Assembly (NCBI RefSeq): GCF_900302455.1
Contig: NZ_ONZG01000004.1
Location: 372,001-436,000, forward strand
Reading direction: 5' to 3'
DNA: 64,000 nucleotides
Source of the DNA: Falsiruegeria mediterranea M17
GTDB taxonomy: Bacteria; Pseudomonadota; Alphaproteobacteria; Rhodobacterales; Rhodobacteraceae
The notes under the pieces were generated by a model. It did no database searches, was not told the DNA's origin, and saw nothing but the letters and a program-made list of their open reading frames with translations. The position numbers and the translations under genes are program-made. Of the stretch, positions 9,410 through 16,739 are shown in pieces; within the stretch, counting starts at the first letter, position 1; the number at the start of each line of letters is the position of its first letter.

Positions 9410-10258
9410 TCAGGGGGTGATCAGACCCGCCGCGCGCGCCTCGGCCTCGGTCAGGTACCACAGGTCGGTTTTGGGGGTGTTGAACATGTCGTTCAGAAAG
9501 GACGGATGCACGCCTTGGGTCTCGAACAAGGTGCGGTCCTTGTCCTGTTCCTGTTGCAGATCGATCTGCGGCAGGGCTGTGTCAAAGTTCAGCGCGTATT
9601 GGTGAAAGCCCAGACGCGCGTCGGGGGCCAAGGAGCGGTTTTGCCCGGCCACAAAGGGCAGAGTGCAGGCTGAGGTGCAATCGCCGACGGCGTGGGTGTT
9701 CAACCCGCGATCACGGATCAGTTTGGCAAAGCCGCGCGCCTCGTAGATGTGGCCGCCGGGACTGTGGAGGGTCACTTGTGTCAACCGGGGCGCTTGATCG
9801 GCGAGGGCTGTCGCGCGGCGGGTCAGGCCAAAGGTAATCGCCCCTTGGAACATCAGCGTGGTGCCGTCTTGCGACAGCTCCAACTGGTAGGTGGCGGCAT
9901 GTTCGCGGTCCATCCGGTCGGTGAACAGCTCTTCTTCCGGCGGGGCGTGGGTGTCGAGCGCCAGCCCCCACCACAGGGCAACGCCCAAACCGGCGGCCAC
10001 CAGCAATGCCAGTTGGCCGCCCCAGACGGCGGCCAGCCCGCCGTGACCAACCACATGGGCGTCGGCGCTGCGTTGGAAGCGGGCGATCTGCCAGCCGAAG
10101 ACCACGATGTCCACCGCCAACAGCGGATAGAGGATCAGAGCAGGCATCGTCAGAGTAGATCCGAGCACGGCCAGAGCCCCCAGGATCAGCGCACGCGGCA
10201 GCACGATCCACAGCCAGAAGACGTGGGGCAGGGAAGCAGAGGCCGGATCGATGCGCAT
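9410..10258 (-). CDS. Membrane protein with ClpP-like periplasmic domain
   Basis: About 282 residues if translation begins at MRIDPASAS; the frame stays open six residues further upstream (10276). The N-terminal 110 residues carry about three hydrophobic segments (LWIVLPRALILGALAVL, LYPLLAVDIVVFGW, LALLVAAGLGVALWWGLAL). The C-terminal part resembles the ClpP/crotonase-like fold of COG3904-type predicted periplasmic proteins: LHSPGGHIYEARGFA is the oxyanion-strand region and GDCTSACTL carries the expected nucleophilic Ser. Whether it is an active protease is unknown. It is convergent with the oxygenase gene and 15 bases downstream of the nitroreductase-fold gene on the same strand. Confidence 0.7.
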   Translation of the reverse strand: MRIDPASASLPHVFWLWIVLPRALILGALAVLGSTLTMPALILYPLLAVDIVVFGWQIARFQRSADAHVVGHGGLAAVWGGQLALLVAAGLGVALWWGLALDTHAPPEEELFTDRMDREHAATYQLELSQDGTTLMFQGAITFGLTRRATALADQAPRLTQVTLHSPGGHIYEARGFAKLIRDRGLNTHAVGDCTSACTLPFVAGQNRSLAPDARLGFHQYALNFDTALPQIDLQQEQDKDRTLFETQGVHPSFLNDMFNTPKTDLWYLTEAEARAAGLITP

Positions 10259-10291
10259 GGGGCCAACCATGCACATGACCTGAGCCTTGGA

Positions 10292-10984
10292 TCAATCGCA
10301 GATGGTCAGAATCTCGTCCAAGGGTTTCTTCTTCTTGGCCACTTCGGGCACGGTCGCATCCTCGGCCGGGTGGCCCACGGCGATGATCATCGTGGGCTTT
10401 TCCGAGGCTGGACGGTCAAGCGCCTCGTTCAGAAACCGCATGGGGTTGGGGGTGTGGGTCAGCGTGCAGAGGCCTGCGTGATGCAGGGCAGCCAGCAGAA
10501 AGCCGGTGGCGATGTTGACGCTTTCGGGGACGTAGTAGTTCTTGAACCGGGTGCCATCTTCGAACTGGCCCCAGCGTTGGGCAAAGACCACGATCAGCCA
10601 GGGCGCCACGGTCAGGTGCTCCTTGACCGCATCCGTCCCGATGGGTTCCAGCGCCTTGATCCATTCGTCGCCTGCGCCGCCCGCGTAGAACCGGCGCTCT
10701 TCCTCTTCGGCCTCTTCGCGAATGCGCTGTTTCAGAGCGGGGTTCCTGATCGCAACAAAGTGCCAGGGCTGGTGATTGGCGCCTGAGGGCGCGGTGCCTG
10801 CGGTGCGAATGCAATCCTCGATCACCTGTTGCGACACGGGCCGGTCGGAATAGTCGCGTACGGTGTGGCGCTTGCCCATGACCTCGTGGAACGCTTGGGC
10901 GGCGGCGCGCATTTCGTCATCGCTCAGGTCGGCGCGGTCGGGCAGGGGCAGGGTGGTGTAGGTCAGGTCTTCGCGGGCAAACAT
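10292..10984 (-). CDS. Nitroreductase-fold flavoprotein, iodotyrosine deiodinase-like
   Basis: A 230-residue FMN-dependent nitroreductase-superfamily protein. RHTVRDYSDRPV (about 39-50) and GTAPSGANHQPWHFV (63-77) form the FMN pocket. In the lid region, E96-x3-Y100 and K121 have the same spacing (4 and 21) as Glu157, Tyr161 and Lys182 of human iodotyrosine deiodinase, as I recall them; those residues grip the zwitterion of halotyrosine. The end, DATVPEVAKKKKPLDEI, also resembles the deiodinase C-terminus. I therefore call it a likely halotyrosine dehalogenase rather than a generic nitroreductase. It is encoded next to the ArgP-like LysR gene, which is 38 bases away on the same strand. Confidence 0.75.
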   Translation of the reverse strand: MFAREDLTYTTLPLPDRADLSDDEMRAAAQAFHEVMGKRHTVRDYSDRPVSQQVIEDCIRTAGTAPSGANHQPWHFVAIRNPALKQRIREEAEEEERRFYAGGAGDEWIKALEPIGTDAVKEHLTVAPWLIVVFAQRWGQFEDGTRFKNYYVPESVNIATGFLLAALHHAGLCTLTHTPNPMRFLNEALDRPASEKPTMIIAVGHPAEDATVPEVAKKKKPLDEILTICD

Positions 10985-11022: not shown

Positions 11023-11907
11023 TCAGTCGGGGATCAACCCTTTGGTCGCGGCCTGTTTAACCGCTTTGGTGGCCGGCTCCAAGGCAGGGGCCATGATGCG
11101 GCTGACCTGCCAAGCCAATGGCACATCCAGCGGCGTTTTTGGGATCAGGGGGGCCAAGCGGCCGTTGCGGATTGGGCCGCGCACCAGTTGGACCGGGTTC
11201 ATGCCCCATCCCATGCCATGGCGCGCTGCGTCTACAAAAGCCTGGGTTGACGGCAAGAAATGGGTGGGCGGAGAGATCCGGGTGTCAAAATTTTCCTGCA
11301 GCCAGGCCCGTTGCAGCCCGTCCTTGGCATTGAAAGTCAGGCAGGGGGCAACGGCCAGGGCTTTGGCGGTGACGCCTTCGGCAAACCATTGGTCCAAGAA
11401 GGATGGGCTGGCAGTCGCGATATAACGCAGCGCGCCAATCGGGTGCATGTCGCACCCCGTCACCGGTTTGGTCGATGCGGTGATGGCAGCGCTGACCTCC
11501 CCCCGCTTCAGCCAGTCGGCGGAATGGTCTTGATCGTCGATCACCAGATCAAACAAGACATCCGGCACTGCTGCCATGGCGTTGACAAACCAGGTCGCCA
11601 GGCTGTCGGCGTTGACGGCAATACGCAATCGGGCGGGGCCAGGGGCTGCATCCAGCGACAGCTCGCGGCTGACCTGAGCTTCAAGGATGCCGACGTCCTC
11701 GGCATGCTTGGCCAGACGAATGCCCGCAGGTGTGCCTGTACAGGGCGTTCCACGGTTGATCAACGACGTGCCCAGGCGATCCTCGAGCGCCTTGATCCGT
11801 TGCGAGATGGCCGATGGCGTCACCGACAGATCGGCGGCGGCGACCTCAAAGCTTCCCCGGCTGAGGATGGCAGACAGGGCGGCAAGGTGCTGTGGATCGA
11901 ATTGCAT
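11023..11907 (-). CDS. argP: LysR-family regulator ArgP (IciA)
   Basis: A 294-residue LysR regulator of the ArgP type. The N-terminus (LAALSAILSRGSFEVAAADL, then VTPSAISQRIKALEDRLG) matches ArgP, and the gene is divergent from an ArgO/LysE exporter, the classical ArgP partner. By family knowledge it senses lysine/arginine and activates the exporter. Between the two genes, GCTTA-TC-TAAGC (11915-11926) is a possible site directly ahead of its own start. The assignment rests on the gene pair as much as on the protein. Confidence 0.85.
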   Translation of the reverse strand: MQFDPQHLAALSAILSRGSFEVAAADLSVTPSAISQRIKALEDRLGTSLINRGTPCTGTPAGIRLAKHAEDVGILEAQVSRELSLDAAPGPARLRIAVNADSLATWFVNAMAAVPDVLFDLVIDDQDHSADWLKRGEVSAAITASTKPVTGCDMHPIGALRYIATASPSFLDQWFAEGVTAKALAVAPCLTFNAKDGLQRAWLQENFDTRISPPTHFLPSTQAFVDAARHGMGWGMNPVQLVRGPIRNGRLAPLIPKTPLDVPLAWQVSRIMAPALEPATKAVKQAATKGLIPD

Positions 11908-11998: not shown

Positions 11999-12598
11999 AT
12001 GCTGACGTCATTTTTTCCCGGCTTTGCCCTTGGTTTTAGCCTGATTCTGGCGATCGGGGCGCAGAATGCCTTTGTTCTGCGTCAGGGGCTGCGACGCGAG
12101 CATGTCTTTGCGGTGTGCCTGACCTGTGCCGTGTCGGATGCGGTGCTGATTGCGGCTGGTGTCTACGGCATGGGTTCCTTGGCGCAGGCGGTGCCCTGGT
12201 TCGAACCCGCGATGCGCTATGGCGGGGCGCTGTTTTTGCTGTGTTACGGCGCGATGAGCTTTCGGTCGGCCTGGCGTGGTGGGGCCAGTATGGAGATGAC
12301 GGGCGCGCGAGTGACCGGATTGGCGGCCACTTTGGTAACCGTGCTTGCCTTCACGTGGCTCAACCCGCACGTCTATCTGGATACCGTCGTGTTGGTGGGT
12401 TCGATCTCGGCCCAATATGACGACCGCATGTTCTTTGCCTTGGGGGCGATGCTGGCGAGTTTTGTTTTCTTCTTTTCGCTGGGATACGGGGCGCGGGCCT
12501 TGGGGCCGCTGTTTGCCCGGCCGCGGGCCTGGCAAGTGCTGGACGCTGGTATCGGTGTCGTAATGTGGGGAATTGCCCTAAAACTTGTTGCGATGTGA
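11999..12598 (+). CDS. argO: LysE/ArgO family amino-acid exporter
   Basis: A 199-residue inner-membrane exporter of the LysE superfamily. It has about six hydrophobic segments and the family N-terminus LGFSLILAIGAQNAFVLRQG. ArgO exports arginine and LysE exports lysine or arginine, protecting cells from toxic excess such as that caused by peptide uptake or canavanine. TWLNPHVYLDTVVLVG is the conserved central motif with the N-P-H. It is divergent from argP, which should activate it. The start ATG 11999 follows AGGAGCC. Confidence 0.9.
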   Translation: MLTSFFPGFALGFSLILAIGAQNAFVLRQGLRREHVFAVCLTCAVSDAVLIAAGVYGMGSLAQAVPWFEPAMRYGGALFLLCYGAMSFRSAWRGGASMEMTGARVTGLAATLVTVLAFTWLNPHVYLDTVVLVGSISAQYDDRMFFALGAMLASFVFFFSLGYGARALGPLFARPRAWQVLDAGIGVVMWGIALKLVAM

Positions 12599-14661: not shown

Positions 14662-15234
14662 ATGCCCAAAGTTGGAATGGAACCCATCCGCCGTGATGCC
14701 ATCGTGCGTGCCACGATTGCCGAGCTTGGCGCCTCCAAGTCCCTGGACGTCACCGTCAGCCAGATCGCCAAACGCGCGGGCATGTCCAGTGCGCTGGCTC
14801 ACCACTACTTTGGCGGCAAGGATCAGATTTTTCTGGCCGCTATGCGACGTATCCTGACGGATTTCGGCGCCGAGGCCCGCAGTGAACTGAAAGCAGCCCC
14901 ACGTCACGAACGGGCACAGGCCATCATCCGCGCCTGTTTTGCGCAATCCTGCTTCACGCCTGATGTGATTGCAGCCTGGATGACATTCTATGTGCTGGCC
15001 CAGACCAATGACGATGCGCTGCGCCTGTGGCAGATCTATCAGGCGCGCATACGCTCGAACCTGGTTGATGCCTTGCGTCCCTTGCTGGCGGACCCGGTTG
15101 AGGGTGCCGAAAACATGATCGCCCTGATTGACGGTCTCTACATCCGCGCCGCGCTCAGCGCCCCGGAAGAGCCGCAACTGGCCGTCAACCACGCCCTGCG
15201 CGTTCTGAATACCCTGATCGAGAGCGGAAAATGA
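14662..15234 (+). CDS. betI: Choline-responsive repressor BetI
   Basis: A 190-residue TetR-family protein with the BetI N-terminus (MPKVGMEPIRRDAIVRATI) and helix-turn-helix VTVSQIAKRAGMSSALAHHYF. BetI represses choline-to-glycine-betaine genes and is released by choline. It is the first gene of a betI-betC-betA cluster, and its stop overlaps the betC start by four bases (ATGA), so the two are translationally coupled. GGAG precedes ATG 14662. A perfect inverted repeat just upstream is its likely operator. Confidence 0.93.
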   Translation: MPKVGMEPIRRDAIVRATIAELGASKSLDVTVSQIAKRAGMSSALAHHYFGGKDQIFLAAMRRILTDFGAEARSELKAAPRHERAQAIIRACFAQSCFTPDVIAAWMTFYVLAQTNDDALRLWQIYQARIRSNLVDALRPLLADPVEGAENMIALIDGLYIRAALSAPEEPQLAVNHALRVLNTLIESGK

Positions 15235-16739
15235 CAAACCCCAACATCCTGATCCTGATGGTGGATCAGCTCAACGGTACCCTCTTTCCCGATGGTCCCG
15301 CGGACTGGCTGCATGCCCCGAACCTGAAAAAGTTGGCTGAGCGCTCAACCCGGTTTGCCAATGCTTATACGGCGTCGCCACTGTGTGCACCGGGCCGGGC
15401 GTCGTTCATGTCGGGTCAGCTGCCCTCGCGTACTGGGGTCTACGACAACGCGGCCGAGTTCCGCAGTGACATTCCCACCTACGCTCACCACCTGCGCCGC
15501 GCGGGCTATTACACCTGCCTGTCGGGCAAGATGCACTTTGTTGGCCCCGATCAGCTGCACGGGTTTGAGGATCGCCTGACCACCGACATCTACCCGGCCG
15601 ATTTCGGCTGGACGCCGGATTATCGCAAACCGGGCGAGCGCATCGATTGGTGGTACCACAACATGGGCTCGGTCACCGGGGCAGGGGTCGCCGAGATCTC
15701 GAACCAGATGGAGTATGACGACGAGGTTGCCTACAACGCGACCGCCAAGCTCTATGATCTGGCGCGCGGCAATGATGACCGCCCCTGGTGCGTGACCGTG
15801 AGCTTTACCCACCCGCATGACCCTTACGTGGCGCGTAAGAAATACTGGGACCTTTACGAGGATTCCGAGCATCTGCTTCCGCAAATCCCGGCGATGGACT
15901 ACGACGATCACGACGCCCACGCCAAGCGTATCTTTGATGCCAACGACTGGCGCAGCTTTGACATCTCTGAGGAGAACATCAAACGCTCACGTCAGGCCTA
16001 TTTCGCCAATATCTCGTACCTGGATGATAAGATCGGCGAAATTCTGAATGTGCTGGAAACCACTCGGCAAGAGGCGATCATCATGTTCGTCTCGGACCAC
16101 GGCGACATGCTGGGCGAGCGGGGCCTGTGGTTCAAGATGAGCTTCTATGAGGGCTCGTCGCGTGTGCCTTTGATGATCTCGTCTCCCGACATGCCTGTCG
16201 GGTTGATTGACACGCCGGTGTCTACAATCGACGTGACCCCGACCTTGGGCGCTCTTGCGGGCGTCGACATGGCCGAGATCGAACCCTGGACTGATGGTAT
16301 GAACCTTGTGCCACTGGCGCAGGGGACCGAGCGGACAGAGCCTGTGGCGATCGAATACGCGGCCGAGGCGTCTTATGCGCCGCTGGTGTCGCTGCGCTAC
16401 GGTCCGTGGAAATACAACCGCTGCGCGCTGGACCCCGATCAGCTGTTCAATCTTGACACCGACCCGCATGAGCTGACGAACCTGGCGGACGACCCGGCCC
16501 ACGCGGGCACGCTGGCCACCATCAAGGCCAAGTCCGAGGCCCGCTGGGACCTGGACCGTTTTGATGCAGATGTGCGCGCCAGCCAAGCCCGACGTTGGGT
16601 GGTGTATGAGGCGCTGCGCCAGGGGGGCTATTACCCTTGGGACTATCAGCCACTGCAAAAGGCCTCGGAACGCTACATGCGCAACCACATGAACCTGGAC
16701 AATCTGGAGGACAGCCAACGCTTCCCGCGTGGCGAATGA
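15231..16739 (+). CDS. betC: Choline-sulfatase
   Basis: A 502-residue type I sulfatase that hydrolyses choline-O-sulfate to choline and sulfate. The residue converted to formylglycine is C52 in LCAPGRASF (C-x-P-x-R motif), and metal ligands are expected from the N-terminal MVDQ region and from FVSDHGDMLGERGLW. The C-terminal part contains the choline-sulfatase-specific RYGPWKYNRC region. The sulfatase needs a formylglycine-generating enzyme, which is not encoded here. Choline released here feeds BetA, the next gene. There is no signal peptide, so it acts in the cytoplasm and the sulfate ester must be imported. Confidence 0.95.
   Translation: MTNPNILILMVDQLNGTLFPDGPADWLHAPNLKKLAERSTRFANAYTASPLCAPGRASFMSGQLPSRTGVYDNAAEFRSDIPTYAHHLRRAGYYTCLSGKMHFVGPDQLHGFEDRLTTDIYPADFGWTPDYRKPGERIDWWYHNMGSVTGAGVAEISNQMEYDDEVAYNATAKLYDLARGNDDRPWCVTVSFTHPHDPYVARKKYWDLYEDSEHLLPQIPAMDYDDHDAHAKRIFDANDWRSFDISEENIKRSRQAYFANISYLDDKIGEILNVLETTRQEAIIMFVSDHGDMLGERGLWFKMSFYEGSSRVPLMISSPDMPVGLIDTPVSTIDVTPTLGALAGVDMAEIEPWTDGMNLVPLAQGTERTEPVAIEYAAEASYAPLVSLRYGPWKYNRCALDPDQLFNLDTDPHELTNLADDPAHAGTLATIKAKSEARWDLDRFDADVRASQARRWVVYEALRQGGYYPWDYQPLQKASERYMRNHMNLDNLEDSQRFPRGE

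Follow-up and report, generated by a model that had tools for sequence, protein, structure and literature searches.

In the window (the whole 64,000-nucleotide stretch of DNA that was analysed), we find a gene whose 230-aa product belongs to the iodotyrosine deiodinase (IYD) subgroup of the nitroreductase superfamily, a membership strongly supported by sequence, by a complete lid triad, by most of the FMN contacts and by the predicted fold. It is highly probable that this gene specifies a soluble bacterial iodotyrosine deiodinase, a nitroreductase-fold and probably homodimeric FMN enzyme acting on halotyrosine.

10292..10984, minus strand: predicted IYD-type FMN-dependent dehalogenase gene, ATG start, 230 aa, assigned from IYD sequence and fold matches

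The sequence AAGGA can be read six bases 5′ of the ATG (10984) of this open reading frame. The gene is single-copy in the 5.28-Mb genome, with one match at E 1e-5 or better. It recurs at 97% identity in another genome of the same genus (in a family sample of 150), and its nearest named relative in a genome-collection search that possibly omitted the nearest genomes is that of Ruegeria marisrubri, a roseobacter (87% identity).

In the proposed reaction, a free halotyrosine (iodo-, bromo- and probably chloro-) would bind and stack against FMN, Glu96, Tyr100 and Lys121 of a mobile lid would hold the substrate by its amino-acid end and bring the lid down over the FMN, and the reduced flavin would strip the halide reductively, leaving tyrosine to be released. 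We infer FMN binding, lid closure, reductive dehalogenation and dimerization from characterized homologues. IYDs are homodimers with a shared active site. The 230-aa protein very probably dehalogenates halotyrosines reductively, with FMN as its cofactor.

The protein is a clear relative of the thyroid enzyme that takes iodine off iodotyrosine, and bacterial enzymes of this kind have been described before. A passage of PMC6017928 treats Iyd as an established subgroup of the nitroreductase superfamily, a passage of PMC13078365, citing a 2014 paper, reports IYD 'from mammals to bacteria', and the structure matches listed here include a bacterial IYD crystallized with iodotyrosine (5KO8). Because bacterial IYDs have already been solved and reviewed and the subfamily is common, there is little new in the assignment itself; the 230-aa protein is a well-supported further member.

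Sequence kinship and the lid triad

First, the closest solved structures are IYDs. The best match is the crystallized enzyme of Haliscomenobacter hydrossis (5KO7, 5KO8 and 5KRD; about 49% identity over 204 residues, E 3.3e-63), followed by human and mouse IYD (DEHAL1; 4TTB/4TTC and 3GB5/3GFD/3GH8) at E about 1e-48. The top five distinct solved sequences are all IYDs of H. hydrossis, human and mouse (two of them engineered variants, E 3.3e-63 to 1e-47); after them come another IYD, 6pz0 (E 3.6e-18), and then nitroreductases not named IYD, at 2.9e-12 and weaker. The protein shares an LTHTP segment with the H. hydrossis enzyme and a C-terminal LD.I segment with the human and mouse enzymes. The C-terminal likeness to the human deiodinase that the first-pass annotation had reported is visible in the alignment with mouse IYD (44% identity overall), in which VPEVAKKKKPLDEIL of the 230-aa protein stands against VPDLKRKALDQIM of the mouse enzyme. 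A passage of PMC3930498 describes an N-terminal membrane anchor in mammalian IYDs; the 230-aa protein is too short to accommodate one before its catalytic domain.

Second, the protein carries the three lid residues, encoded as follows.

10685..10699, minus strand: stretch coding for lid residues E96 to Y100 (positions reckoned from the ATG at 10984); E and Y in 118/118 relatives

10622..10624, minus strand: K121 codon, third lid residue (position reckoned likewise from 10984); K in 118/118 relatives

It had been proposed from the letters alone that E96, Y100 and K121 have the spacing of human Glu157, Tyr161 and Lys182, and this proves correct: in the lid region, they align without gaps to the E, Y and K of H. 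hydrossis, mouse and human IYD. The mouse counterparts are Glu153, Tyr157 and Lys178, in a numbering for which we took Tyr157 as the anchor. The human numbers are presumably the mouse numbers plus four, giving Glu157, Tyr161 and Lys182, and the chain ranges in the structure alignment agree, with model residue 230 at mouse 286 and human 290. With the Tyr157 offset, each of the eight mouse FMN contacts given in PMC3930498 lands on the expected residue, and the mouse numbering E153/Y157/K178 is thereby confirmed.

Chance occurrence of the spacing was gauged by shuffling the protein: the bare motif E-x3-Y-x20-K appears somewhere in 342 of 20,000 shuffles (1.7%), so the spacing alone is weak evidence, and it is the alignment, free of gaps and with E values of 1e-48 to 1e-63, that carries the case for the putative triad. 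The triad is present at exact spacing in all 118 relatives examined (80 genome-collection, 9 family-sample and 29 phylum-sample loci, chosen by similarity and not de-duplicated by species; for the two samples, the count covers the matches retained as loci), including relatives from other classes of the phylum at 52–57% identity, and the E, Y and K columns are also kept in H. hydrossis and mouse IYD. Among relatives picked by similarity, this conservation is not independent evidence of the substrate. We take the Glu/Tyr/Lys triad of the IYD lid to hold the amino-acid end of the substrate. Substrate binding by lid side chains of IYD is stated in a passage of a review (PMC5499721).

FMN contacts

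Third, most of the flavin site is retained. The FMN contacts of mouse IYD are given in a passage of PMC3930498 as R96, R97, S98, R100, P123, S124, T235 and R275. Five of the eight (R96, R100, P123, S124 and T235) are identical in the 230-aa protein, and the H. hydrossis enzyme keeps six. The corresponding segments are these.

10856..10870, minus strand: R39-H40-T41-V42-R43 codons, aligned to the FMN-contact segment R96-R97-S98-V99-R100 of mouse IYD

10778..10789, minus strand: P66-S67-G68-A69 codons, aligned to FMN contacts (mouse P123 and S124), then a G-A pair

10451..10453, minus strand: T178 codon, aligned to mouse FMN contact T235 (human Thr239); T in 118/118 relatives

The protein and the H. 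hydrossis enzyme have the same letters at R39, T41, R43, P66, S67 and T178, so that the replacement of mouse S98 by Thr (T41) is common to both. They differ at two contact positions: mouse R275 aligns, beside a gap, to Lys219, where H. hydrossis has Asp, and mouse R97 is replaced by His40, where H. hydrossis, like mouse, has Arg. Among the 118 relatives, this position is His in 112 and Arg in 6. The G-A pair that follows the FMN contacts is invariant in all 118 relatives, in H. hydrossis and in mouse IYD; we assume that the backbone of its alanine (in P66-S67-G68-A69) binds the phenolate of the substrate.

The His40 codon (window 10865-10867) corresponds to mouse Arg97 and, by the four-residue offset, to human Arg101. 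Passages of PMC3930498 and PMC13171439 name R101W of human IYD as a hypothyroidism variant; the bacterial subfamily thus carries another residue, mostly His, at a position where a change causes human disease.

Predicted fold

Fourth, structure prediction points to the same subgroup. An AlphaFold2 monomer model, built without ligand from 44 sequences (that of the window and 43 of the 80 genome-collection loci), has a mean pLDDT of 85.5 and a pTM of 0.84. It contains a long helix (residues 82-101) that ends at the Glu/Tyr pair; less certain parts are the lid (101-120, block means 62 and 71), residues 141-150 (56) and the first ten residues (65). In Foldseek, IYD chains take ranks 1-25 of the 50 matches listed, the first being iodotyrosine-bound H. 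hydrossis IYD (E 2.7e-24, TM 0.87/0.92). The same iodotyrosine-bound structure leads the VIA-align ranking, in which IYD entries occupy ranks 1-12 with Z from 24.0 to 20.5 and the next entry has 17.8. At Z 20.5, 6PZ0, which we take to be the Thermotoga neapolitana IYD, belongs to the same subgroup by fold, with a shorter chain (192 residues) and 29% identity. Among the matched structures, 215-222 residues are visible in IYD chains solved with iodotyrosine or di-iodotyrosine and 184-202 in chains with FMN alone, as would be expected if the lid lacks order until substrate is bound.

Distribution of the subfamily

At E 1e-20 or better, the subfamily is found in 54 of 150 genomes sampled from the family and in 37 of 299 sampled from the phylum, two samples that overlap in part. 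Its edge is sharp, because between the weakest full-length matches (9e-75 in the family sample, 9e-70 in the phylum sample) and E 1e-20 there are only fragments. Named holders, in a list picked by similarity to the 230-aa protein, include Ruegeria, Phaeobacter, Leisingera, Roseibium/Labrenzia and Pseudovibrio, which are mainly marine genera. Three family genomes have partial or split matches (G008:C3:3426401-3427059, G099:C61:32725-33200 and G139:C333:10419-10724), that of G099 with an internal stop; these may be broken genes, suggesting recurrent loss, or assembly edges.

Substrate and physiological role

Bacterial IYDs are known biochemically. As to their physiological purpose, our guess is that the role is to recover tyrosine from, or to detoxify, halotyrosines that come from the environment or from oxidative halogenation. 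In an excerpt of PMC4708624, the human DEHAL1 enzyme, expressed from cDNA in human cells, also debrominates bromotyrosine, which makes bromotyrosine a sensible candidate for a marine substrate. The complete triad, the single copy and the kinship to genera with cultured strains open the role of a bacterial IYD to testing by deletion.

We compared the presence of IYD with that of two other families across the 150 genomes, in crude tests of limited power whose genomes are not independent. A 4-hydroxyphenylpyruvate dioxygenase (TIGR01263 over cut-off) occurs in 30 of 54 genomes with IYD and 45 of 96 without it (Fisher p 0.40), and this co-occurrence lends no support to a link between IYD and tyrosine catabolism. 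An animal-type haem peroxidase (PF03098) occurs in 14/54 against 25/96 (p 1.0), or, counting matches over cut-off only, in 11/54 against 25/96 (p 0.55); the window's own genome has a PF03098 match only below cut-off. The reductive dehalogenase family PF13486 matches 22 of the 150 genomes, 16 of them over cut-off, always within profile positions 193-306 of 306 and with at most 33 bits. These are probably epoxyqueuosine-reductase-like iron-sulphur proteins, for which reason no contingency with IYD was drawn up. A marine halotyrosine role is plausible and gains no positive support from the co-occurrence tests.

The alternative that survives best keeps the IYD fold and lid and gives the enzyme a different natural substrate, another tyrosine-like or phenolic amino acid such as a differently substituted tyrosine, with dehalogenation as a side activity. 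Its precedent is SUP-18, the Caenorhabditis elegans IYD orthologue, which a passage of PMC3930498 describes as known for potassium-channel regulation, with its enzymatic activity undefined; IYD homology is therefore no guarantee that halotyrosine is the physiological substrate. The patchy presence in the family (54/150) and the missing association with tyrosine catabolism or haem peroxidases point the same way, but a missing association is weak evidence, and the triad and G-A pair are invariant in all 118 relatives, in H. hydrossis and in mouse IYD. We therefore regard a different natural substrate as unlikely.

Gene neighbourhood

The predicted deiodinase gene is flanked by the following genes.

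11023..11907, minus strand: ArgP/LysG-type LysR regulator, directly upstream of the IYD gene with a 38-base gap (TIGR03298, 363 bits against a cut-off of 273.55)

11999..12598, plus strand: LysE-type amino-acid exporter, divergent (PF01810)

9410-10276, minus strand: 288-aa protein, 15 bases downstream of the IYD gene, no Pfam match up to E 1

The lysE gene (11999..12598) is the presumed ArgP target. Its product scores 198.9 bits, short of the 213.65 that TIGR00948 (L-lysine exporter) requires, and 172.7 where ArgO requires 298. The N-terminal part of the 288-aa protein has hydrophobic segments, and we take its SPGG...SACT pattern, by eye, to be ClpP-like.

In such a setting, IYD could work together with ArgP and LysE in the export or sensing of amino acids, its substrate being one that the pair deals with. 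The same-strand argP directly upstream and the divergent lysE favour this, as does the recurrence of argP upstream of IYD in 30 of 112 other loci with at least 1000 bases upstream; lysE lies nearby in 21 of 69 with at least 2300 bases upstream, and the 288-aa gene follows in 9 of 75 with at least 1600 bases downstream. The argP link, however, is limited to the closest relatives (IYD identity to the 230-aa protein 74-97%, median 80, with argP; 52-80, median 71, without it) and belongs to a larger stretch of conserved synteny that also takes in YebC and a sulfatase gene. In the 88 loci not bearing argP, some of which have a flank of only 1500 bases (the flanks of family- and phylum-sample loci are short, 1500 bases in the two looked at), no family of neighbours up to four genes away turns up more than 6 times; the commonest neighbour cluster other than IYD, by eye an ABC-transporter ATPase, reaches 6 of 88. 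For these neighbour families and for the clusters of the larger stretch, genes were called by a home-made longest-ORF rule, by which some may be missed or misplaced. An export or sensing unit is accordingly very doubtful. With argP found only in close relatives and no other neighbour recurring in more than 6 of 88 loci, the IYD gene behaves like one whose enzyme works alone, and local synteny best accounts for the argP link.

A bolder synthesis would have a broad marine alphaproteobacterial set keep a dedicated halotyrosine-salvage enzyme that, in Ruegeria, Phaeobacter and Leisingera, stands under ArgP control beside LysE, so that dehalogenation would be joined in one unit to the sensing and export of unusual amino acids; we consider this a long shot. 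The favoured reading, a soluble halotyrosine deiodinase, thus preserves one part of what the first-pass annotation had suggested. Membership of the IYD subgroup stands, on sequence, triad, FMN contacts and fold, and the marine ecological function proposed with it is left without support, there being no recurrent partner outside close relatives and no co-occurrence with 4-hydroxyphenylpyruvate dioxygenase or haem peroxidase.

Elsewhere in the window, positions 14662-16739 hold a BetI-like TetR regulator and a choline-sulfatase-like gene (PF00884 with PF12411); clusters with a BetI-like regulator and with a sulfatase-like gene lie near IYD in 20 and 11, respectively, of 120 loci, the window counted. 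A defence-system reading was dropped, with no PADLOC match.

Annotation as nitroreductase

Automated labels place the 230-aa protein only broadly. Its Pfam matches are all to broad nitroreductase families, none of the seven NCBIfam models listed for it reaches cut-off, and the PDB molecule name of H. hydrossis IYD is itself 'Nitroreductase'. Two other branches of the superfamily were compared. BluB (5,6-dimethylbenzimidazole synthase) reaches a Z of only 17.5 and was rejected as an assignment, at 58 bits against the NCBIfam TIGR02476 cut-off of 150; the FbiB C-terminal domain reaches Z 17.7 and 45.2 bits against an NCBIfam cut-off of 249.55. Pfam Nitroreductase has five matches genome-wide, the IYD gene included, and all three triad residues are found together in none of the three alignable paralogues, in alignments that are gappy in the lid region (20-26% identity).

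It is hardly credible that the protein is a nitroreductase or flavin reductase of the general type whose lid motif arose by chance. The broad Pfam matches and the appearance of the bare motif in shuffles would allow it, but in the lid region the protein aligns to IYDs without gaps, at E 1e-48 or better and so far ahead of other nitroreductases; the Foldseek and VIA-align rankings and the missing motif in the genome's three other alignable nitroreductases also stand against it. The earlier suspicion that a general nitroreductase annotation would conceal an iodotyrosine deiodinase is thus borne out, and beyond this one gene, a subfamily with a sharp edge, found in about one third of the family genomes sampled (54/150), goes unseen under 'nitroreductase' labels.
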